Below are positions 38,634 to 50,744 of a DNA stretch of 64,000 nt, one piece after another. This DNA is from Microbotryum silenes-acaulis (Eukaryota; Basidiomycota; Microbotryomycetes; Microbotryales; Microbotryaceae). Position numbers and translations under genes: made by a program. The stretch lies in contig QPFY01000016.1 in the NCBI GenBank assembly GCA_003665825.1, positions 785,826 through 849,825 on the forward strand, written 5' to 3'. Position 1 is the stretch's first letter. Each line of letters opens with the position of its first letter. The notes under the pieces are model-generated. The model searched no databases. It was not told the origin of the DNA and saw nothing but the letters and a program-made list of their open reading frames with translations.

Positions 38634-39059
38634 AGCAGCAGAAGTATGACTGATCCGGTGTTTCGAAGTGGGCGTTCGTTTCAGACTGTCGCAAGGTGAC
38701 GGATGCTCATTGTATAGTTCGTTACTTCGTATACGTAGTAGGGGGCGATTGGGCAAAGCAGAAGAATGGGCGGTATGCGCGAGCGCGACGCGTCGCCGCC
38801 ATCTCCAGCGTCTCCGGAGTCGTGACGCGTCGACGTCCGGGCCAGTCCCGGCCCCAATTGTTCCGCGCGACCCGTGCCGAATCACGTGTTCGAGGTAGAG
38901 CGCCTGTACAGCTTGCAGAGGACAACAATAACTCTCGAAAAATATCCAAAAATCCGAATACACTATTGTTCGCCGACTGCGCCTTTGTTTCCAGGTTTTC
39001 CATGGAGTTGTAGTGGGAGTGAACGTCTCGGCAACTCGACATCGAGGAGGGCACACCTG

Positions 39060-39185
39060 ACCTGGGCCTAATCTGCTACCTGGGGTAGCAAGGTTGCAAC
39101 CCGCCGGGATTGTGGCTTGGAAGGCGCGTGGGAGGGCGCTGCGCGCGCGCCTGTTGAGGCGTACTTTTTATGTCTGCCCGAGGTG
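39060..39185 (-). repeat. Right terminal inverted repeat of KDZ element
   Basis: 126 bp, the inverted partner of 33430-33556. Homology stops abruptly at the inner base 39060 and the outer base 39185. Confidence 0.85.
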
Positions 39186-39193
39186 CTCCATCG

Positions 39194-41117
39194 CGACGTC
39201 CGAAGCGCGCTGGCGGCTGGCCTCTGGCTACACCGGTACTTAGAGTTCAATTGGGCATGGAAAACGCCTGGGCACCTATATGTGTTTTAATGATTTGATG
39301 GAGTTCTTGGGCCGCAACATTGGGGTCTAAGCCTGGCCATAGATCGATGGTGTTGCGTTCGACCAATTCGGAAAGCCTCGGCGGCGATCTCTCGCGGTCT
39401 CCGAGTCAGGCTCGGCCTCCGACATTCGCCATAGGATGTACTTGCTTCACTTTCTTTTCCACGAGCTAGTAGATACTGCTCGCTCAATCGAAGTGGTATC
39501 ACGACAGACCCTGGAGTATTGCAGAGATAGGTAGTCCTGGCTGGCTGCCCTCGTGCCGGTGGCTGCTCACCGTCGTCAGCTAGGCTTGGGCGCACGCACG
39601 TGCCATCGAGAATGATTAATGAGCGACCCGACCGCTTCCGAGTCTGGTCTCGAAGAGTCGTCGTGGAAATGTTTATCGCGTCTATCTACAATAGTACTAC
39701 CGTATAGGATTTCGCCGCATGATGGATGTCGTCCAGAACGTCATTGGGTATTCAGGTTAGACAATGGTTGCCACCTCCTTGACGAATGAATAGTGCCAGA
39801 GTGAAGCGGCAAACTCGGTTGGTGAAGTTCGCGACCACGGCAGCAAAGACTACATTCGCGTACAAGAGCTAGAGGTGCGGTATCAACACTATGCGATTCG
39901 GGTAGCTAGGCATGAAACAGGAATAAGCACTATATGAGAGCTGGGACCAGTCACTCAGTGGGACGTTAGACATCCTCGGCAATGGCGCGTCTCGCGTGTT
40001 AGTACTGGCGCTGAGCTATCGCAAAATACATGCGATAGCCCTACAGTAGGCTACAGACCAGCCGGATATTCGACGACTTGGCCGGTCTTCTCACTCGAGC
40101 TTCGAATCAAGGGGGGCCACAGCTGCATACAAAGGAAAAGCGAGCTCAGAACTCAACGCGCTCTCTGCCAGATGCCGATAGGAGACGATGCGGTGCGCAG
40201 CGCTTCTGCTATCGGGTCAACCCCCCCGGCGCGCGCCTACGAGGGAACCCATCCGCTCGGCCGCCCGGCGGCTCTGCTTTATTTAGCGCTTTTGGGCTTG
40301 AAACGGTGCGACAAATCAGAACAAGTGTGCTCTTTGAACCTAGTGCGCTTGGCGAAGCACCGGCGAAGCACCGATGGCACGGGACTTTGGATGCATTGGG
40401 CGAGAATGATTCGAGATGAGAGAGTGGAATTCCGGGGGTGGGCCCGATCGACAATTCCCGAGGGCGTCTGAGCCAATCAGAGCGCGGCGTTGAATGTCTT
40501 GGCGCACGTTTCATCTTGTCGTCGCCTGCGCGCGCGCCGGCGCGTGCCACTGCTGCCGATCAGCGCACGTTCCGTCGGTTCTAACAAGCCTCGATGCCAA
40601 TTCAAATCCTCGGGCAAGGTGCGCACGGTCGGGCTCTGAAGGGTTCCCGGGTGTGATTGGCGCAGCTGTCTCCATTTCCGCATGCACCTATGCCGACGAG
40701 TGAGAAGCCGCCGTGAGGGCCGAGAGCGACGCCCAATCTAGGCTGCTTGCAGGGAGGTTCCGTGCCTCGTTCCGAGAATTTTGTTGCGAAGACGCCCGCC
40801 GGGCGGGCCGATGGAGGGATCGGAGGCCATGAGAGGCCATGTCTTGCAACTCAAATTGTGTGCGACGTCTTTTTCCTCCTCCTCTCTTTCCCTCCCTCTC
40901 TTTCCTCATCCGACCACGTTCTGCTCGACTCTTGACGACCGCTTCAACTAGTCGACTCACCCCGGCCCAAGTTTGAAACTCTTTCGGCTCTCCTTTCCTC
41001 TCTCTCCTGACCGACTCTGCCAGACTTGCCGTACCCCGCTCCCAGGCTCAGCCTGAATTTGCTCCCTTCGTCTTTCTCCTTCTGCCCTTTCGCCACCTCT
41101 GGAAACCACCTGTCGCC
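39194..41117. other. Gene-poor region right of the KDZ transposon
   Basis: About 1.9 kb without a convincing gene. One minus-strand frame ending at 39247 reads in a protein-like way (LVERNTIDLWPGLDPNVAAQ) for about 50 codons but has no start, splice or family match, so it may be a relic. From about 40860 to 41110 the plus strand is rich in C and T, typical of a promoter of a strongly expressed fungal gene, here the phosphate transporter. Confidence 0.5.
40860..41117 (+). promoter_or_regulatory. Pyrimidine-rich promoter/leader of the phosphate transporter
   Basis: Long runs of C and T (for example tcctcctcctctctttccct near 40875 and ctctcctttcctctctctcc near 40995) lead up to the ATG at 41118. 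Such tracts are common before highly expressed fungal genes. No CACGTG (Pho4-type) site was seen in this stretch. Confidence 0.4.
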
Positions 41118-43100
41118 ATGTCTGTCGAGCTCAGCCACGAGAAGATTATCGATGACGGTTCCGACCACAACAATTCGGCCGTCGACCTCAACGCCCGTCG
41201 CCGTGCTGCGCTCGAGGCGCTCGACAACAAGCCTTTCGGCTGGTTCCACGTCAAGGCGTGCTTAGTCGCCGGTGTCGGGTTCTACACCGATGCTTACGAT
41301 GTGAGTGTTTCATTTTCTGCTCTTGCTAGAGATCAGCCTACTGGGAAATGTCCAATCGTCGGATAAACCGAGGCCCGGTGTCTGGTGTAGCCGGCCTTCC
41401 TCAGGGTTCGAACTCTGACGCCGAACGAGGCGGCACATTCGGGCTTTTGAAACTGACCTAAGCGCCTTCGTGCTTCTCCTATCCGCCAGATTTTCGCCAT
41501 CAACTTGGCCTCGACGATGATCGGAGTGAGTCGCCTTTTGCATTTCCTTTCAGTCCTAAAACCGAGTTGCGGTGTCTGAGCACGTCATACGACTTTGTCA
41601 CCATCAACAGTACGTCTACCGACCCATCACCCTCGCCAAGCCCCGTGGAGCGCTTACGGCCAACCAAGATCTCGGTCTCAAGGTCGCCACGCCCGTCGGC
41701 ACCTTGCTCGGTCAACTCGGCTTTGGTGTAAGTCCTATAGCATTTAAATTGGAAAATTTACGGTCATTGACACGACCACTACTCCACAGTACCTAGCCGA
41801 TGTGTACGGTCGCAAGAAGATGTACGGTATCGAGCTCATGGTCATCATCATCGCCACCGTCGGCCAAGCCGTCGCCGGTCGAGGCCCCGGTATCTCCCTC
41901 CTCGGCGTCCTCATCTTCTGGCGAGTACTCATGGGTATCGGAATCGGTGGCGACTACCCTCTTTCCGCCACCATCACGTCCGAGTTCGCTGCGACACGCA
42001 TCCGTGGTCGCATGATGACCGCGGTCTTTGCCTCGCAAGGATGGGGACAGCTCTCGGCCGCCCTCGTCTCGCTCGTCTGCCTTGCTGCATTCAAGAAGCA
42101 AATTTTGGCCGACGACCCTCTCTACCCCCGCCATCTCGACTTTGTCTGGCGATTGCTCATCGGTCTCGGTGCTGTCCCCGGTGGTGTCGCCCTCTACTTC
42201 CGTCTCACGATCCCCGAGACCCCTCGCTTCACCATGGACATCGAGCGCAACGTCAAGCAGGCCTCGACCGACGTCGATGCCTTCCTCTCGACTGGTGGCT
42301 ACGTTCACGACTACGAACAACCCCAGGCCGTCAAGGTTGAGGCCCCCGTCGCCAGCCGCCGTGACTTCATTGCCCACTTCTCCAAGTGGGAGAACGGCAA
42401 GGTCCTCCTCGGCTGCGCCTACTCGTGGTTTGCCCTCGACGTCGCCTTTTACGGTCTCGGTCTCAACTCGTCCATCATTCTCGGTGCCATCGGCTACGGC
42501 AACGTCAGCAGCGGAACCCCCCAATTCATCCGTTACCAGACCCTTCACAATCTCTCGATCGGCAACATCATCCTGTCCGTGGCCGGCCTCATCCCGGGCT
42601 ACTGGGTCTCCTTCCTCTTCATCGACTCGTGGGGCCGCAAGCCCATCCAGATCATGGGCTTCTGCTTCCTCGTCGTCACTCTCTCATCCATGGGTTTCGG
42701 TTACCACAAGCTCAAGGACAACGCCCCCGGTGCTTTCGTCGCTCTCTACTGCCTCACCAACTTTTTCCAGAACTTTGGCCCCAACACCACCACCTTCGTC
42801 GTCCCCGGTGAGGTCTTCCCTACCCGATACCGTTCGACCGCGCACGGTATCAGTGCCGCCTCGGGCAAGTTTGGTGCCATCGTTGCTCAGATCATGGCTT
42901 TCAAGCTCAAGGACCGTGGAGGAGCCCCCGGTTCCAACAACTGGGTCAACCACGTGCTCCAGATTTTTGCGCTCTTCATGCTCACGGGTCTCTTCTCGAC
43001 TTTCCTCATTCCCGAGACCAAGGGCAAGTCACTCGAGGAGCTCTCCAACGAGTCACAAGACGAGTTCATCGCCCCTCCCAAGGCTTCTGCCCGTGTCTAA
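41118..43100 (+). CDS. High-affinity phosphate transporter, PHO84 type (MFS)
   Basis: Four exons (41118-41300, 41490-41525, 41611-41727, 41790-43100) give 548 residues. Exon 2 is only 36 nt. The protein is a 12-helix proton:phosphate symporter: helix 1 is VKACLVAGVGFYTDAYDIF, followed by the MFS loop YLADVYGRKKMYGIE, GIGIGGDYPLSATITSEFA (phosphate-site region), the long central loop with DVDAFLSTGGYVHDYEQP, AYSWFALDVAFYGLGLNSS, and NFFQNFGPNTTTFVVPGE. The C-terminus ends LIPETKGKSLEELSNESQ. These signatures are those of Pho84 and plant/fungal PHT1 proteins. It acts in the plasma membrane, and genes of this kind are normally induced by phosphate starvation. Splice joins are phase 0 throughout. 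Confidence 0.92.
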
Positions 43101-44020
43101 GAAAAAAAGATGTCGACTCCAACCATCTTGGTTTCACTTCTTGCGCCCGTCGTCCAGTCATGGGGGGTTCCACCGTAATGCGTGTGTTTAGGTCTGCGTG
43201 TGGTTCGTGCACAATCTGACCATTCGTGTCACATAGTAATATTAGTTATAGATTGACTGTTTGCTCTGCAAGTATCCAGTTTGCGAATTTCGTGGGAATG
43301 TGGCGAGAGCGACGGCGAGGTGAGCGGCTTATAAGTGCTGCGCATGCGCGGTCCCCATGGCCTCATTTGCCTCGTCTTGTACGAGATATATAGTATTTCG
43401 GTTCCGTAAAGGGGTGGCATTCTGCATCCGGGAACCACGAAAACTAGTACGACACAATCGCCCGCATCTTCTCCCGCAATTTGCGCCCCTGTTCGACCAG
43501 ACGCTGGCGGTACGCGTGGACGCTCCCTCGTGTGCGATGCCAGAGGTCAATCAAGACTGGCACGGTCGCGAAGAATTCGACTCGTAGGCGTCGGCGGAGG
43601 CCCACAAGGACGAACACGATGCCGGTTCTTTGAGAGTCGCCGAAGATGACGCTAGGGATGCTTGGTACCAGAAGCGTGAGAGTCCCTTGCCGGCTACGAA
43701 AGAGAGGTTCCACGCCGACTCAGAAGAGGCGATCCACCAAGAGATTGAAAAACTTGCAACATCAAAGCGAGAACTGTCCAAGTGATCGTCAAGCTCGCCA
43801 AGTTACTTCTCACCCCCGATAAGCCCAAATACGAAGGTGGAGCCTTGCGGATAACGAGTCGATTGTCGCGACGGCCGTTCACCAGCCGTCGCTACTACGA
43901 CCAAGAGAGCACCACAGAATCTGCCCACGGTTCGCGAGCGTCGTCCTTATGCTAGGGCACAGTTATTTCGACGTTGCACGTTCATCTAACGAGACACTTC
44001 ATATAATCAATCCCCTTCAT
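43101..44020. other. Region between phosphate transporter and glucosidase II
   Basis: About 920 bp between two convergent stops. On the plus strand at 43575-43783 a highly charged frame reads AEAHKDEHDAGSLRVAEDDA and so on for about 65 codons between two stops, with no start. It could be a gene relic or chance. Nothing else is supported. Confidence 0.4.
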
Positions 44021-47000
44021 CTAAAGTTCATCCTTCTCGTTCGACGAGTTAGTCGCCTCCTCGAAGCAAACGGCGGGTGTGTTGATCTTGAACAGATACA
44101 AGCACTTGTCCGGTTCGGTCACCGACACGAGCTCGTTCTTCGTCCCACAGGTCAACAAAACCCTCGACGATCGCACGGGTCCATTCCAGCATCGCGCTCC
44201 TTCGCTGTAGCTCTGTTCGAGGTAGTACTCGTCCGTTCCGACGGTCGCGGTCGGGGACCAGCCGGAGAAGGTGCCAAGTGACGTCGGCACACCGTGTTGA
44301 ATCTGTTCAGCCTTGTCCAAGAAGCAGACCTTGTACTCGAACCTGTGATTTTATAGGACAAGTACAATGAGTGATCTAGTGACACTGTGATCAAATGCTT
44401 GAAGCATAACTCGCCCTCCGTGATCTTTCTCAAGACATGTTTCGGCCAGCTTTTTCCATTCCCAATCGCGTCCGTAGTCGCGGTTGAGGTCACCCTGCGC
44501 CGACGAGATGCGCTCTTCAAGTCGACCCTTCTCATCTACCAAAGCGCTGACAGCCGCGCGTGCAGACGTCAATTCTACCAAGATATGCATGTACTGTCAA
44601 TAACGGTACGTAGGAAGGGAAGCAGCTCCGTCCGAATGTACTCACCAGCCGTTTCGGCACCCTCCGTCGACGCGGAAGGGTAGATGATGCCCGTGCTGAC
44701 GAGCACATCCATCAAGCTCTTCTTGAAGGCATCGTAGCGCGGCTTGAACTTGTCGGGGATGTACTCGCCGATGTTGAAGACTGCGCCAAACACGAGATAA
44801 CGTAAGCATGTAGGAGCTTGCACCCACACGTACACGCTTGCCCATATTCCAAAACTTACTCGTCGAGGAAGAGCTCGGAATAACCCGCTCGCCAACGCGA
44901 GTCGACAAGCTATCGATGAGGTTGAGCGGGTCCTCGTTGCGCAGCGCATTAAGTTGGTCATCGGTCAAGTCGACTATGTTGTTGGCGACGGGGACCTGGA
45001 GGATCTCGCCTTCGATTTGGTAGGGTTTGCCATCTTCGTCGAGGAGGTTGTTCGTCGTTTGCCATTCCTTGAACGCTCGAGTGGCGCCGAGGACGGCCAT
45101 GTCTTGGTAGTTGGGATTGAAGTCGCGCTGCACACAAGTAAGCACGAACGGAATAAGAGTCAGCCAATGTTCTGTACTTCCCACGAAGTCCGCACGATGA
45201 ACTCACCGAAAGATCCGCCAACACTCCACTCAGTTCGACGATATGCCCTTCGAGGTTCTGACGATGTTTCTGCAGAGCCTCGATCGCATGCTGCATCTTG
45301 ACGATCTTCTTATACAACAAGCTCTCCTTCTTGCGCTGAATATCCCCCGCCGCCTCATTCTCCAATCTCTCCAAAGTGGCCTGCGACGACTGTTGCTTGA
45401 CCGTCAATCGTTCGAGTTCTTTTTGGCCCTTTTCGATCTCATCCTGTAGCCTCGCTTTTTCCTTGACGCCGAATTTGATGTAATCCCGACGAATCGCAGC
45501 GCCAACACGATGCTTCCTCTTCTTTTCCGCCATGATCCTCGCGTTCTCCCTTGCGAGCTCAGCACAAAAGTTACCGCACTTGGCTTTGCCGTCCGTTTCG
45601 TCCGAACCGTCACAGCATTCAGGATCGCAGATCCCGTCGTTGACGCGCGAACGAAGGATACAGTTGGGTGTGAAACCTTGGTTCTGGCAGTAGAACTGAC
45701 CGGGGGCGCATTCGGGAGATTGCAAGCGAGCTTCATGGTCGATGGCAGGAACGGTCGGGCATGCGTTGCCTCCAAAGTTGAGGGTGATGTCCCAGTCTTG
45801 CACGACGAGCACTCCGGCATCTTTAATGACGAGTTCGGCCGAACGTCTTCCACCGCGTCGACGAGCACTCGAGGCGGCCAGGCCGTCTATCCAGTCGAAT
45901 TCGAGGCCTTGTTGCGTACCCGCGAGTCGGACACAGGTAGGTTTGCTCGCGAGACCGAGGACGTGGATCTCTCGAACGACGACATCCTCGATCTTCTTGG
46001 CCCAGGCGTTGGAGGTCGCATCGTACTTTTGCAAGCCGACGGCCGACGGGTCGACGAGTGAGCGCGAAGAGAGGACGAGGGACTTGCTGTCCGGCGACGC
46101 AGGGGCGAGCTGGAAACCTCGGTGGACAAAGTCGCCTTTTTCGTGGTCGAAGGACTCGCCATCGTCTAGGTAGAGCGAACCCTCGGCCTTGGTGCCGGTC
46201 AAGTCGACGGCAACGACGAGGGTGATGGGGTCCTTCCACATCAAGATCGACGAGCGACGAACAAGATCGCGGCGAGGGAAGATGGAACCACCACGGTGGA
46301 AGAGAGGGGTCGAATCGAGCGGCGCGGCGACCTTGATCGTCGTTCCACCCGACGCGACACCGAAATAAAGATCGTGGTTGAAGTAGTGGTAGTAAGGCTG
46401 ATCGTCGGAGATGTAGACTTCGGCTTGCGTCACCCCCTCGTGGACGACGGGTTTGGCCAACAATCCGGTCGAACCGAGGTAGAACTGATCCTCCATGTCG
46501 AAACCCTTGGGATCGTTGGGGAAGACGACGTACTGTGGCCGCAAAATGGGGATACCCGTGCGACTCGCTTCGTAAAAGGCCGTGTACATCGCCGGTAAGA
46601 TCTTGTACCTCAGGCGAATCGATTCGCGCATCATCGAGCGGTAAGGCTCGGCAAAGAGGTAAGGTTCGCGACGCTTGGTGTCGAGATGACCGTGGGCGCG
46701 GAAGAAGGGTGAGAGGGCGCCGACTTGGTACCAACGCGTCATCATCTCTTCGGAGGGGTCACCAAAGAAACCTCCCGTGTCCGAGCCGGCGAAGGTCATG
46801 CCCGCGATACCGTTCGTCAGCAGCATCGGCAGCGTTGATTGAAGATGTGACCAACGGCCGAGGTTGTCACCGGTCCACATGGCGCCGAAGCGTTGAGAAC
46901 CCGCGAAGAAGGCGCGCGTGAGCACGAAGGGGCGCCTGGGCACGGGTTCACGCTCGACCAAACCCCGGGCGGTGATGTTTTGCTGCGGGTGCAAGGAGTC

Positions 47001-49178
47001 TCGGCAGTCAGTGATCGCTCGATCGCCCCGATCAGCTGCGACGACTCCGGGAACGTACGTAGAGCATGCCGTTGATGTTGTGCACATCGCGGTGTTCCCA
47101 TCCTCCGTAGTGGATCGCATCCTTATGCATCGTAATCTCGGGTCCGTCGAAGACCGAAGGCTAAGGTAGGCGGGCATTGAGAACAAATTAGTTGCCTACT
47201 CCAGACGCTCACTCGCCGACGACCGCGAGACCCACCTCGTTCATATCGTTCCAAATGTACAAATTCTTGGTCGAGCCGACGAACTTGTCGAACCTGAACA
47301 ACGAAACCCACCAGTCCCAACTCTTGGGGTGGAAGAAATCGACCCAAGCCGAGTCGCCGGTCCAGCACCATCCGCGGAACTCGTTGCCGTCGCGGTCCTT
47401 GCACAGCACGTCAAGATCTTGCGCTTCTTTGTAGACGTGGAGCGACGAGGTGCGCTTGATGTGCGGGTCGACGATCGCGACGAGCTGGAGATACTCAGAT
47501 ACTCAAGATATCAATGATCCAAGTCACCGCGAGTCCGCTTTGTTAATGGTCATGCTTACCTGACGCCCTCGATCGACCAACTTCTGCTGCATCTTTTCAG
47601 GTGTGGGGAAGTAGTCTTTGTTCCAAATAAAGTACTTATGCTCCTCGGCGTATTCGATATCGAGCCACATGACGTCCATGGGGATGTCGAACTCGTCGAA
47701 CTTGGTCTGCACCTCCTGCACGTCCTCTTCGTTGACATAATTCCATCGACATTGGTGGTAGGCGGTAGCGAAGTATTGCGGCATGGGGATCTTGCCCGTC
47801 AAGGTCGTGTATTGGTCAAAGATGTCGAGCGACGAAGGCCCCAAGAAGACGAAAAGGTCCAAGATGCCCGATTCGGCGATCCAATGCGTCGACGTTGTGA
47901 CCGGAGAAGGACCCGCATCCGTCGACGCGCCGTCCCTGGACCTCTTCTTGAAGGCCGAGGTGATAAGCTTGGGGGTCGAGCTCTTGGTGATGTCGATCCA
48001 CATCTCGGATCCGATGGCGGCAAAGACGGCGACGGTCGATCCGGCGCGGTGGGCCTTCATGAAGGGGATCGAGCCGTAGATGGCCATCTCCGAGTCTGCG
48101 TCGTATTCAAAGACGTCGAGGTTGTAGAGGCGGTAAGGGTCGGTGTAAGCGTTCGTGCCACCCCTGTGTTGGGTTGTTCGGTTAGTTTGGGGGCTGCTCT
48201 CTTTGAGCTTGTTGCAGATGCGCTGACGTACCTGGTCTGCTTGAGACTCAGCGTCGAGGCATGTTGGGGAATACCATAGACGTGTTCGTAACCAAGGAAG
48301 TTGATGTCGAGACTGAGCGATTCGGGGCCTGTTTCCGTGCGCGGGCAAGCTAAGTTTTAGCCGAGTGCAAATCTAACGCGTGAGGACGCGCACTCACCCT
48401 TGGGCTTGGAGTCTTGTTTGCCATTGAAATTCTCCTCCCACATGCCGTCGTCGCTGGTGGGTAAAAAGCCCGGGTAGGCCTTTTCGGGTACGATGACGGT
48501 CTGTTCGGTCGGATGGTCCGGGTCCTGAATGACGACCTCGCCCTGGTCCTGGCCGGCGATGGGTTTGACGCGAAAGTGTTCCATGTTGAACAAGCCCCTC
48601 TCGTTGAGGACGATGTGGGGCTGTCCATCGCGGAGGAAGGTGATGAGCAATGGGTCGTGTTGGACCTGGACCTGTTGGCCGTGCTGGGGCGGACCGTACG
48701 AGATGGTCGATTGCTTGGCATCGATCTCGACCGAATAATGAGCGTCGTCGAGATCAAGAACAGGTTCTTGCACCAAGGCCCAAGAAGCGGTCTCGTTGTA
48801 CCTCTGCCTCAATCCATCGACCTCGTCGACGATCACGCGCGCCAAGCCATCGTTCTGGAAGCGGATCTCGAGCCGGAAGCTGATTGAAGGGAACAGCGCG
48901 TTCTTGACCGACGCGATGTAGCGCCCTGCCTCGAAGCGGGGCGGGCTAGCGATCGAGTAGGGCGATTTCCAAGTAGAGGAAGCGTCGATCGCTCGGTCGG
49001 CGAGTTGTCGGTTGCGATTGCAGAAGCCAGATTGCTCGCACGTCTTGAAGTCCTGCTTCTTGACCGCGATGACGACGTCCACGCTGGCGATCGCGGCCCA
49101 CACGAGCAGCAGTACAGAGAGGCGACGGGACCAGGTGGAAGACGGCTTTTTCTTGGCCGCGGGTCGCGTTCGTGCCAT
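44021..49178 (-). CDS. Glucosidase II alpha and beta subunits fused in one polypeptide
   Basis: Ten exons (48398-49178, 48232-48328, 47560-48163, 47236-47484, 47059-47160, 45207-46982, 44860-45127, 44646-44780, 44415-44574, 44021-44342) give 1,497 residues. A signal peptide or anchor ([19 protein letters not shown]) leads. Residues about 40-1014 are a full GH31 alpha subunit: [15 protein letters not shown], nucleophile motif [31 protein letters not shown], ending [11 protein letters not shown]. The same frame runs on, within exon 6, into the beta subunit: one LDLa ([18 protein letters not shown]), a long coiled coil, and an MRH lectin domain ([38 protein letters not shown]), ending EKDEL for ER retention. 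The usual first LDLa repeat and beta signal peptide are missing. It trims glucose from N-glycans in the ER. The last intron may use a GC donor (44414) or a GT donor three bases on. Confidence 0.88.
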
Positions 49179-49606
49179 GGTCGTCGGGGGTGGGGCAGAG
49201 TAGAGCCTCCTGGGTTCGATGTAGCGCCCGCGAGTGGGTGAAACGTGGGAAGTCGCGCAGAGCCAAGCCAGTCAGTGCCGCTTGCCGGCCACGTCGACAG
49301 ACGTCGACCGCACCTGGCCCAGCGGAGCACTGCGGAGCATTATCGATCCGCACCGGGAGCCGCCAAGGGGCACACCGTATTGCAGAGAATTACATGTGAT
49401 CACATGAGGGTGTAGAAAATACCAAGGACTGCACCGACTCGGCCTGGGGAACTTGATCATCATTTCCCTTTATTTCGGGGGGCCAACTCCTCCACAGTTC
49501 CTCCGCTCGCAGTCCCCGTGCTCGTCCCGTCCTCGCGGTGCTCGAGTCTTTGCCCTCTCTTCGCCTCAATCGACACCCACCCTGACCCTCCCCCCAGACA
49601 CAGCCA
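49179..49606. promoter_or_regulatory. Divergent promoter between glucosidase II and HIS2
   Basis: About 430 bp between two divergent start codons. No coding exon or specific factor site could be supported. Confidence 0.45.
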
Positions 49607-50744
49607 ATGACGATTTCGCACCACTCCCACTCGGGCCAGTTCTGCCTCCACGCCAATGGGACGCTCGAACAAGTCGTCCAGACCGCGATCGCGAAAGGAT
49701 TCACCACTTTTGGCTTGACCGAACATGTGCCCAGGTCAAGAGTGCAGGATTTGTATCCCGAGGAGGTGAGTGATGGCAGGTCATCGGTGTACTCGACCTA
49801 CACCGAGCTGGACGCTGACTCTCTCTCTCTCGCCCATACCTCCGCCCCCACCCGGACGACCCCCACTTTTTTTTTGCAAAAAGGCCGACCTGACCCCCGA
49901 GGACCTCACCACCACGTTCGCCTCCTACCTCGCCGAAGCCCTACGACTCCAGATTCACTATTCCTCCCAAATCACCCTCCTCATAGGCCTCGAAACCGAA
50001 TCCATACACCCTCTCACCCTAGATGAACTCGAATCTCTCCTTTCGGACCCGTCAAGTCCGATCCAATACCTCGTCGGTTCGATCCACCACATTTCCGAGA
50101 CACCCATCGATTTCGATCAACGAACGTACCATACCCTCCTCTCCTCCCTCCCCGCTCCCACAAGCGAGACTCGACTCACCCTCCTGTTCTCCTCCTACTT
50201 TGACGCGCAATACGACCTCCTCGTGCGGTTCAAACCCGAAGTGATAGGCCATTTCGATCTGTGTCGGTTGTATGACCCCGATCAACAGTTTAAAAAGTAT
50301 CCCCAAGTTTGGGCCAAGGTTGAGAGGAATGTCAAACAGGCGATTGGGTACGGCGCCTTGTTTGAAATCAACGCTTCGGCTTTTCGGAAGGGGTGGAAGA
50401 CGCCTTATCCGGGCCGGGATGTCTTTGAGGTAAGTGAGGGCGAACCGCCCACAAGAAACAACAGAACGGACTACCTGACCCGAACAAACCCACCTCTACA
50501 GCTGATCCAATCCCTCGGCGGTCGCTTCACCCTCTCGGACGACTCGCACGGTCCTCAAGCCGTAGGACTACACTACGACCAAACTTATTCCTATCTCGTC
50601 GAAATGGGTCTTCAAGAACTATGGTACCTTGCACCTGCACCGGTAGGATCGGCCGATTCAAACGTCTCGAGAGATGTGGTGGCTAGGAAGATTGAAGGGA
50701 GACCTTGGGAAAAGGAGTGGAGGGATCTGTTGCAGCGATCATAG
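49607..50744 (+). CDS. HIS2: Histidinol-phosphatase (PHP family)
   Basis: This enzyme removes phosphate from L-histidinol phosphate, the penultimate step of histidine synthesis. Three exons (49607-49765, 49884-50429, 50502-50744) give 315 residues, the usual size. PHP-domain metal motifs are visible: HHSHSGQFCLHA at residue 5, GLTEHVPR, LLIGLETESI, VGSIHHI, VIGHFDLCRLYDP, LFEINASAF and FTLSDDSHGPQAVGLHY. The start matches the family N-terminus at the metal-binding HSHSG. The acceptor of intron 1 follows a T9 and A5 run, so length variation could occur there. It is convergent with the ATG22-like gene, with only 95 bp between stops. Confidence 0.92.

Follow-up and report, generated by a model that had tools for sequence, protein, structure and literature searches.

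ER glucosidase II checks glycoprotein folding and has a part in setting the time that a glycoprotein spends in the calnexin cycle. Its two subunits, alpha and beta, are normally encoded by separate genes. The roles of beta (tethering, ER retention and mannose sensing) are hard to separate, as loss of beta removes all three. A locus in the genome of Microbotryum silenes-acaulis raises the question of whether both subunits can be one protein, as had been claimed in an earlier note on the window (the whole stretch of DNA analysed, 64,000 nucleotides). We consider it very likely that the locus encodes a single-chain ER glucosidase II that stems from an ancestral fusion in the Pucciniomycotina and whose linker is probably pinned by disulfides.

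The gene model on the minus strand gives one protein of 1497 aa and 168,650 Da with a single terminal stop (Table 1). The alpha chain is complete up to its own C-terminus (...DWDITLNF, aa 1011) and is followed in frame by beta, with the 16-residue motif of the LDLa repeat starting at aa 1058, both within exon 6. A stop-to-stop open reading frame of 745 codons (47195-44958, minus strand) spans the junction and is open throughout, so that the continuity of the frame inside exon 6 described earlier is borne out, and a merge of gene models can be ruled out as the junction lies within one exon. Eight introns are of the GT-AG type and the ninth is GC-AG; taking the latter as an intron results in GGFEYKVC, resembling GGFNYKVC of M. 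intermedium. The public gene model of M. silenes-dioicae, to which the window beta part is 95% identical, treats part of this intron as coding.

Table 1. Coordinates of the fused gene and its parts, counted from the first letter of the window
Feature	Position	Strand	Basis
Complete gene of the glucosidase II alpha-beta fusion (1497 aa in 10 exons)	44021..49178	-	gene model and relatives
Exon 1: N-terminus, hydrophobic and likely a signal peptide; beginning of alpha N-terminal domain	48398..49178	-	gene model
Alpha part, aa 1-1011, introns counted in	45783..49178	-	gene model; profile match; P0001 fold comparison
Exon 6 (1776 bp), which contains the junction: a section of the GH31 barrel, the C-terminal domains, the linker, LDLa repeat 2 and the first coiled coil	45207..46982	-	gene model
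Cys961 codon, fusion-specific, alpha (KPTCV)	45933..45935	-	alignment counts
Linker, aa 1012-1035, including Cys1019, stops one residue short of Cys1036	45711..45782	-	gene model, alignment
Cys1036 codon, retained final Cys of LDLa repeat 1	45708..45710	-	alignment counts
LDLa repeat 2, aa 1043-1084	45564..45689	-	PF12999 profile positions 71-168 of 176
Cys1052 codon, fusion-specific, LDLa repeat 2 (TPNCILRS)	45660..45662	-	alignment counts
Beta coiled-coil and acidic region (exon 6 end, intron 6, exon 7)	44860..45563	-	gene model; helices in P0001 model
Intron 9, GC-AG	44343..44414	-	gene model
Exon 10: most of MRH lectin domain and KDEL end	44021..44342	-	PF13015 79.1 bits; MRH residues

The same 7.5 kb are found on contig C27 with three one-base indels, none of them inside the gene, and a further copy lies at the start of contig C8. 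This C8 copy has no substitutions and many indels, including an extra A at window position 45584 within LDLa repeat 2, and it reads as an error-rich redundant contig end; a pseudogene or duplicate was set aside, as its 7 kb here differs by indels alone. The indels in the C8 gene copy might suggest an artefact of assembly or gene prediction, as might public data in which gene prediction seems to have merged beta with unrelated neighbouring genes (Tulasnella and Aspergillus rows). However, a single open exon holds the junction, C27 is identical to the window within the gene, and many genomes keep the fused state with hardly any variation in junction length, which leaves an artefact next to no probability. 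A stand-alone GII-beta was not found in the genome by the profiles PF13015 and PF12999, which match only the three copies (window, C27 and C8). Thus, the single-chain reading stands: both parts are encoded by one frame, a separate beta gene was not found and fused relatives exist. One further MRH-type match on contig C26, where PF07915 is just under the cut-off in the piece scanned, presumably is Yos9/OS-9-like, judged by its motif, rather than a second GII-beta, and a GH31 locus on contig C3 is another GH31 gene. With NCBIfam, P0134 and P0121 gave only generic GH31 matches below the cut-off, and the C26 piece gave none.

The alpha part comprises the GH31 barrel with N- and C-terminal domains, and its best match is solved GII alpha over other GH31 structures. 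In the model of the fused relative P0001, the alpha fold runs to residue 944 of the human chain 8d43_A, which we take to be the last residue of that chain. The window protein has D574 (WNDMNE) and D650 (WTGDN), presumably the nucleophile and the acid/base, respectively, and among 33 long fused rows the former is Asp in 30 (2 gaps, 1 G) and the latter in all 33. On the beta side, Q1404, R1448, E1467 and Y1473 are present, which we take to be the MRH lectin residues; Q, E and Y are each kept in 31 of the 33 rows (2 gaps), as is R (1 gap, 1 N), and 31 rows end with KDEL, RDEL or KEEL. In exon 10, PF13015 was above its cut-off and PF07915 was under it (24.4 bits, cut-off 27). The window protein itself ends in KDEL.

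LDLa repeat 2 binds calcium in the human enzyme via D94, D98, D104 and E105 (PMC9713302). Three of these ligands (D94, D104 and E105) are kept in 53/53 fused proteins, and at the D98 position 46 have D and 7 have E. The pLDDT of this repeat is 45-77 by blocks in the window model and 86-92 in the P0001 model; the 50 PDB matches listed stop between model residues 521 and 691, and the LDLa part is thus barely covered. The arginine equivalent to R815 is R in only 1/52 fused alpha parts, but this difference is not specific for the fusion, as the unfused alpha of Chaetomium lacks this arginine as well, and it was dropped as a mark of fusion.

The fusion occurs in a range of rust, smut and red-yeast relatives of this fungus. 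In public proteomes, 40 long proteins with a beta part were found, of which 35 are fusions of alpha and beta; those with an organism name belong to Pucciniomycotina (Microbotryum, Rhodotorula, Sporobolomyces, Puccinia and others); their architecture is identical to that in the window, with no difference in kind. The search for relatives covered the best 120 of 1969 matches, and the named hits contain no Agaricostilbomycetes, Cystobasidiomycetes, Tritirachiomycetes or Classiculomycetes. No named Pucciniomycotina was found among the best 120 of 404 matches of stand-alone beta size, and other Basidiomycota among the matches listed have a stand-alone beta. The Puccinia triticina protein P0020 (998 aa, 'partial' in the source), which stops at the junction, was left out of both the fused and the unfused sets, and the environmental unfused alpha P0017 groups with agarics and was therefore rejected as an unfused member of the Pucciniomycotina. 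The beta tree was built on 19 fused and 26 unfused rows (out of 53 and 121, respectively) and puts the fused forms in one clade with support of 98/96; Mixia is a long branch in it, flagged as unsure. The alpha tree, which has no outgroup, was built on 25 fused and 20 unfused rows (out of 53 and 101, respectively, the unfused set having no named Ustilaginomycotina), and here the fused forms make up one side of a branch with 96/91. As the fused forms group together in both trees, one old, vertically inherited fusion is the simplest reading. The fusion thus is not private to this genome; the Pucciniomycotina sampled share it, apparently from a single origin.

What was lost in the fusion is not trivial. 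The beta part has no signal peptide and lacks most of LDLa repeat 1: the PF12999 match of the window begins at profile position 71 of 176, and the core motif of repeat 1 is found in 0/53 fused and 97/121 unfused beta sequences. The earlier note had both parts missing, which is right except that the last cysteine of repeat 1 (SPEC, aa 1036) survives, and the repeat thus is truncated just before its end. The note had also regarded the lost parts as redundant after fusion, which is too simple a view of the repeat: three of the four named beta aspartates at the alpha interface of the human enzyme sit in LDLa repeat 1 (PMC9713302), and in S. pombe mutation of a calcium-binding Glu of this repeat (E73) inactivated function, according to a study cited in that paper. 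Loss of the repeat therefore calls for a substitute, and derived cysteines at the junction could be a candidate.

Cys961 of alpha is found in 52/53 fused and 0/101 unfused alpha sequences, and Cys1052 of LDLa repeat 2 in 51/53 fused and 0/121 unfused beta sequences; Cys1036 is as frequent in the fused forms (51/53) as it is usual in the unfused ones (120/121). On the tree, Cys1036 and Cys1052 require two changes each, and Cys961 and Cys1019 one each. P0018 lacks Cys1036 together with Cys1052 and keeps the other two, and P0019 lacks all four. These paired losses, which come from two environmental, partial proteins, suggest two new disulfides in place of the missing repeat, and the sequences indicate that the linker is probably pinned by the two derived pairs Cys961-Cys1019 and Cys1036-Cys1052. 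With a real fused gene, the new cysteines might also form other pairings or stay free thiols, as Cys1019 may be a remnant of repeat 1 or may be new, the aligner placing it against a repeat-1 cysteine. This is a serious possibility, yet the less probable one, as the gained cysteines equal in number those left without repeat-1 partners (two each) and cysteines are missing in pairs from P0018 and P0019. The length of the linker is nearly fixed across the fused relatives in the alignment, and aa 1010-1029 have a pLDDT of 92-96 in the model of the window protein; the junction does not give the impression of a loose tether.

Whether the chain would also stay in one piece is a further question. A precursor could, once folded, be cleaved within or close to the junction, resulting in a two-chain enzyme that is perhaps still disulfide-linked, and there is indeed a basic stretch (RRRGGRR, aa 985-991) directly before the last strands of alpha, with aa 990 basic in 33/33 long fused rows and a gap in 92/101 unfused alpha rows. 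Such a cut is nevertheless improbable: cleavage at RRRGGRR would take away part of alpha's own domain, the window linker has no dibasic site and is predicted to be ordered, and Kex2/furin-type cutting takes place in the Golgi, whereas the chain has a KDEL end. Even less can be said for two products made from alternative transcripts or an internal start, with an incidental fused frame, as the linker and the junction cysteines are conserved at the protein level, and neither the window linker nor those of the 33 long fused rows have a hydrophobic N-terminus for beta, so that a separate beta is not expected to enter the ER.

An uncleaved single chain would work as follows. A single signal peptide would carry the whole chain into the ER, where the GH31 part would trim the inner glucoses of N-glycans and the MRH domain at the C-terminus, which the coiled coil holds, would bind the substrate by its mannose arms. 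Both activities are established for the family and would be present in a fixed 1:1 ratio. The terminal KDEL would retain the whole enzyme. In an ancestor of the Pucciniomycotina, the natural C-terminus of alpha would have been joined to the end of the beta LDLa repeat 1, so that beta lost its signal peptide and the greater part of this repeat, and the peptide bond may have taken over the repeat's job of holding beta on alpha. LDLa repeat 2 would still dock on conserved alpha arginines, and the linker of near-fixed length would be pinned by Cys961 of alpha and Cys1019, with Cys1036-Cys1052 capping LDLa repeat 2. That the whole Pucciniomycotina rely on such a covalent 1:1 glucosidase II, with one fusion, a discarded repeat and an interface rebuilt by a peptide bond and two disulfides, has slightly better than even chances in our estimation.

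Heterodimeric glucosidase II (GANAB/PRKCSH; 5f0e, 8d43, 5jqp) hydrolyses alpha-1,3-glucose on N-glycans, and its MRH domain stimulates this activity. The fused form has in common with it a GH31 alpha that carries the two catalytic Asp residues and a beta with LDLa, coiled coil, MRH and an ER-retention end, but it is one gene and one chain, lacks the beta signal peptide and LDLa repeat 1, and has two extra, nearly invariant cysteines. An earlier description of a fused glucosidase II was not found in the literature, which was searched in part. Fungal tryptophan synthase is a biosynthetic enzyme with domains unrelated to those of glucosidase II. It is similar in that two partner subunits come from a single fungal gene (alpha and beta in one chain with a linker; PMC10893352).

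A clade with a beta that cannot dissociate and that misses a main docking repeat would separate the roles of beta and, if the proposal is true, would be a natural experiment that parts its tethering role from its lectin role. It would also offer a natural design for a single-chain glucosidase II, and the fusion is a likely shared character for the Pucciniomycotina. Some caution is advisable with databases, which can name fused proteins after one of the two subunits only; the public entries that carry a functional name are called, for example, 'Glucosidase 2 subunit beta', 'glucosidase II' or 'glycoside hydrolase family 31 protein', and the names shown leave unsaid that the protein combines both subunits.

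In the window, both subunits of ER glucosidase II (GII) are encoded by one gene, the exon borders of which were placed by splice-site scans and comparison with relatives, and the gene model gives a protein of 1497 residues and 168,650 Da. The continuous alpha-beta frame claimed in the earlier note is borne out: exon 6 is open across the junction and passes from alpha into GII beta with neither a stop nor an intron between, alpha being followed there by a 24-residue linker, LDLa repeat 2 and the coiled coil, while the acidic region, the MRH lectin domain and the KDEL end are encoded in exons 3' of exon 6. The best solved-structure match of the exon-6 part is Chaetomium GII alpha (E 5.7e-103), and the alpha part has both catalytic aspartates. 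The public protein of M. silenes-dioicae (P0121) apparently translates part of intron 9, which that of M. intermedium (P0122) does not.

Features of the fused gene, its neighbours and an MRH gene on another contig (C26) of the same assembly
Feature	Position	Strand	Remarks
Fused GII alpha-beta gene	44021-49178	minus	10 exons, single terminal stop
Alpha part	aa 1-1011		glucosidase II alpha chain
Exon 6	46982-45207	minus	1776 bp; holds alpha-to-beta junction
Intron 9	44414-44343	minus	GC-AG, in MRH part
Sugar-transporter-type MFS exon	41748-43097	plus	PF00083, 147.5 bits; adjoins fused gene
PHP-domain gene	49770-50741	plus	PF02811, 33 bits; 5' of fused gene, divergent
Yos9/OS-9-like MRH gene	C26:120854-121177		nearby frame ends RRRDEL

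Contig C27 carries the same 7.5 kb with 0 differences inside the gene and overlaps the window at 99.93% (over 20 kb compared). Another contig repeats window positions 38767-49967 (C8:1-11189, 11.2 kb) with 0 mismatches and 21 gap openings; this copy, in which many indels fall within the fused gene, including one in LDLa repeat 2, is taken as an uncorrected contig end. Given its divergence from the window past 11.2 kb, the start of C8 is a redundant or chimeric contig end. A separate GIIbeta gene, which the earlier note had named as a point to settle, was not found by PF13015 and PF12999 profile searches of the 29.85-Mb genome. Two extra profile matches were rejected as second subunits: that of PF01055 on contig C3 is another GH31 gene, and that of PF07915 on C26 is, judged by a sequence motif, a Yos9/OS-9-like lectin, which is probably the second lectin that reads N-glycans in ER quality control.

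The fusion is widespread among relatives. In a search with words drawn from the beta part only, for candidates of a length matched to the full chain of 1497 residues, 35 of the 40 proteins returned carry both alpha and beta; in the remaining five, beta has different or additional N- or C-termini. Fused forms occur in Microbotryum, Rhodotorula, Sporobolomyces, Rhodosporidiobolus, Phenoliferia, Pseudohyphozyma, Meredithblackwellia, unnamed Microbotryomycetes, Atractiella, Mixia, Puccinia, Cronartium and three environmental proteins, and a further search added Melampsora (P0004). The nearest relative, M. silenes-dioicae (95% identical over the beta part), belongs to the Pucciniomycotina, as do the other fused genera; the comparison within this group proposed earlier yields the same fusion. 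In the stand-alone size range, the best 120 of 404 matches include beta from Ustilaginomycotina, Tremellomycetes and Agaricomycetes and no named Pucciniomycotina; the four matches of that size with an alpha tail (P0012, P0013, P0158, P0162) represent incomplete pieces of fused genes.

Phylogenies of fused and unfused forms, likewise suggested in the earlier note, group the fused proteins together for both subunits. In the beta tree (outgroup Aspergillus), the 19 fused beta parts fall into a single clade (98/96) whose sister is an Ustilaginomycotina group that includes one environmental protein, with a single change of state; Mixia sits on a long branch of unsure position. In the alpha tree (no outgroup; columns before the junction), a single branch (96/91) separates the 25 fused proteins from the rest, again with one change, and this tree is less informative on the exact branch because the unfused alpha set contains no named Ustilaginomycotina. 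An environmental clade (P0002, P0003, P0005, P0006, P0011) outside Microbotryomycetes and rusts is also fused. The trees suggest a single fusion event that predates the divergence of four or more classes, and vertical inheritance thereafter.

At the join, the model of a fused relative (P0001, mean pLDDT 80.6) matches GII alpha through residue 944 of the human chain 8d43_A, which we take to be its last, and beta begins directly after the alpha end. As claimed earlier, the beta part lacks its signal peptide and LDLa repeat 1: the core motif of that repeat occurs in 97/121 unfused beta vs 0/53 fused proteins, and no hydrophobic N-terminus remains in the linker of fused forms. The last Trp of alpha is 58-61 residues away from the CCDG motif in 47 of the 53 fused proteins, 62-63 in three, and 49 and 51 in two (one could not be measured so), a nearly fixed spacing that hardly suggests a free tether. 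The linker is also predicted to be ordered, since in a model of aa 790-1110 of the window protein (mean pLDDT 85.3) residues 1010-1029 reach pLDDT 92-96 and include a strand or bridge of two residues (1021-1022); LDLa repeat 2 is modelled poorly there (45-77) and well in P0001 (86-92).

According to a study on the human enzyme, beta docks through its LDLa region on an electropositive surface of alpha; the residues it names are D53, D54 and D57 (repeat 1) with N93 and D94 (repeat 2) on beta, and R460, R815, R817, R818, R891, R929 and K930 on alpha, and S. pombe work cited there reportedly found function abolished when either E73 in repeat 1 or E114 in repeat 2 was mutated (PMC9713302). With repeat 1 in the human interface and its E73 reportedly required in S. 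pombe, a substitute for the lost repeat is needed. The repeat-2 side is retained: equivalents of R817 and R818, which face it, are kept in 52/52 fused proteins with a residue there, and D94, D104 and E105 in 53/53, by mapping to the human residues. On the repeat-1 side, 90/101 unfused vs 11/53 fused proteins have K or R at the R891 position; at the R929 position, 39/53 fused ones do, so that repeat-1 contacts are not all given up. The R815 position (window aa 851), which faces repeat 1, is R in 100/100 unfused basidiomycete proteins with a residue there and in 1/52 fused ones, the other 51 being hydrophobic or Thr. This loss was not counted as a mark of fusion, as unfused Chaetomium has Ile there, and the history of the position does not simply track fusion.

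Two of the 21 cysteines encoded in the fused gene are almost always kept in fused forms and are lacking in unfused ones, namely Cys961 of alpha (52/53 fused vs 0/101 unfused alpha) and Cys1052 of LDLa repeat 2 (51/53 fused vs 0/121 unfused beta). Cys1036 corresponds to the last cysteine of repeat 1 and should have been left partnerless by deletion of most of that repeat, and Cys1019 of the linker, though aligned to another repeat-1 cysteine, may be newly arisen. All four are present in 51/53 fused proteins; the losses are confined to two partial environmental proteins, P0018, which lacks 1036 and 1052 and retains 961 and 1019, and P0019, which lacks all four. These paired losses provide a lead to putative disulfides 961-1019 and 1036-1052, for the testing of which these two proteins are useful natural variants.

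In the most likely mode of action, one chain with one signal peptide would trim glycans by its GH31 part and bind mannose arms by its MRH domain, KDEL would retain both activities, and the peptide bond would substitute for the tethering by repeat 1 while repeat 2 would still dock on alpha. Sequence, conservation, phylogeny and retained residues are direct observations, from which we infer translation as one uncleaved chain, the disulfides, docking and stoichiometry. The main alternative, cleavage of the chain at the basic stretch aa 985-991, is disfavoured, as these residues are part of the alpha domain itself and the enzyme bears an ER-retention end.

A 2023 review describes GII as a heterodimer 'in most eukaryotes' (PMC10532485). 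In the titles and abstract beginnings covered, an incomplete part of the literature, no description of a GII alpha-beta fusion was found, nor did term searches find a passage on it in the searchable text of the M. lychnidis-dioicae genome paper (PMC4469406) or a Sporidiobolales genomics paper (PMC12093110). This kind of protein is not unseen, as public databases already contain fused sequences, though their names there give no sign that both subunits are present. Of the neighbouring genes, the PHP-domain gene possibly encodes a histidinol phosphatase.
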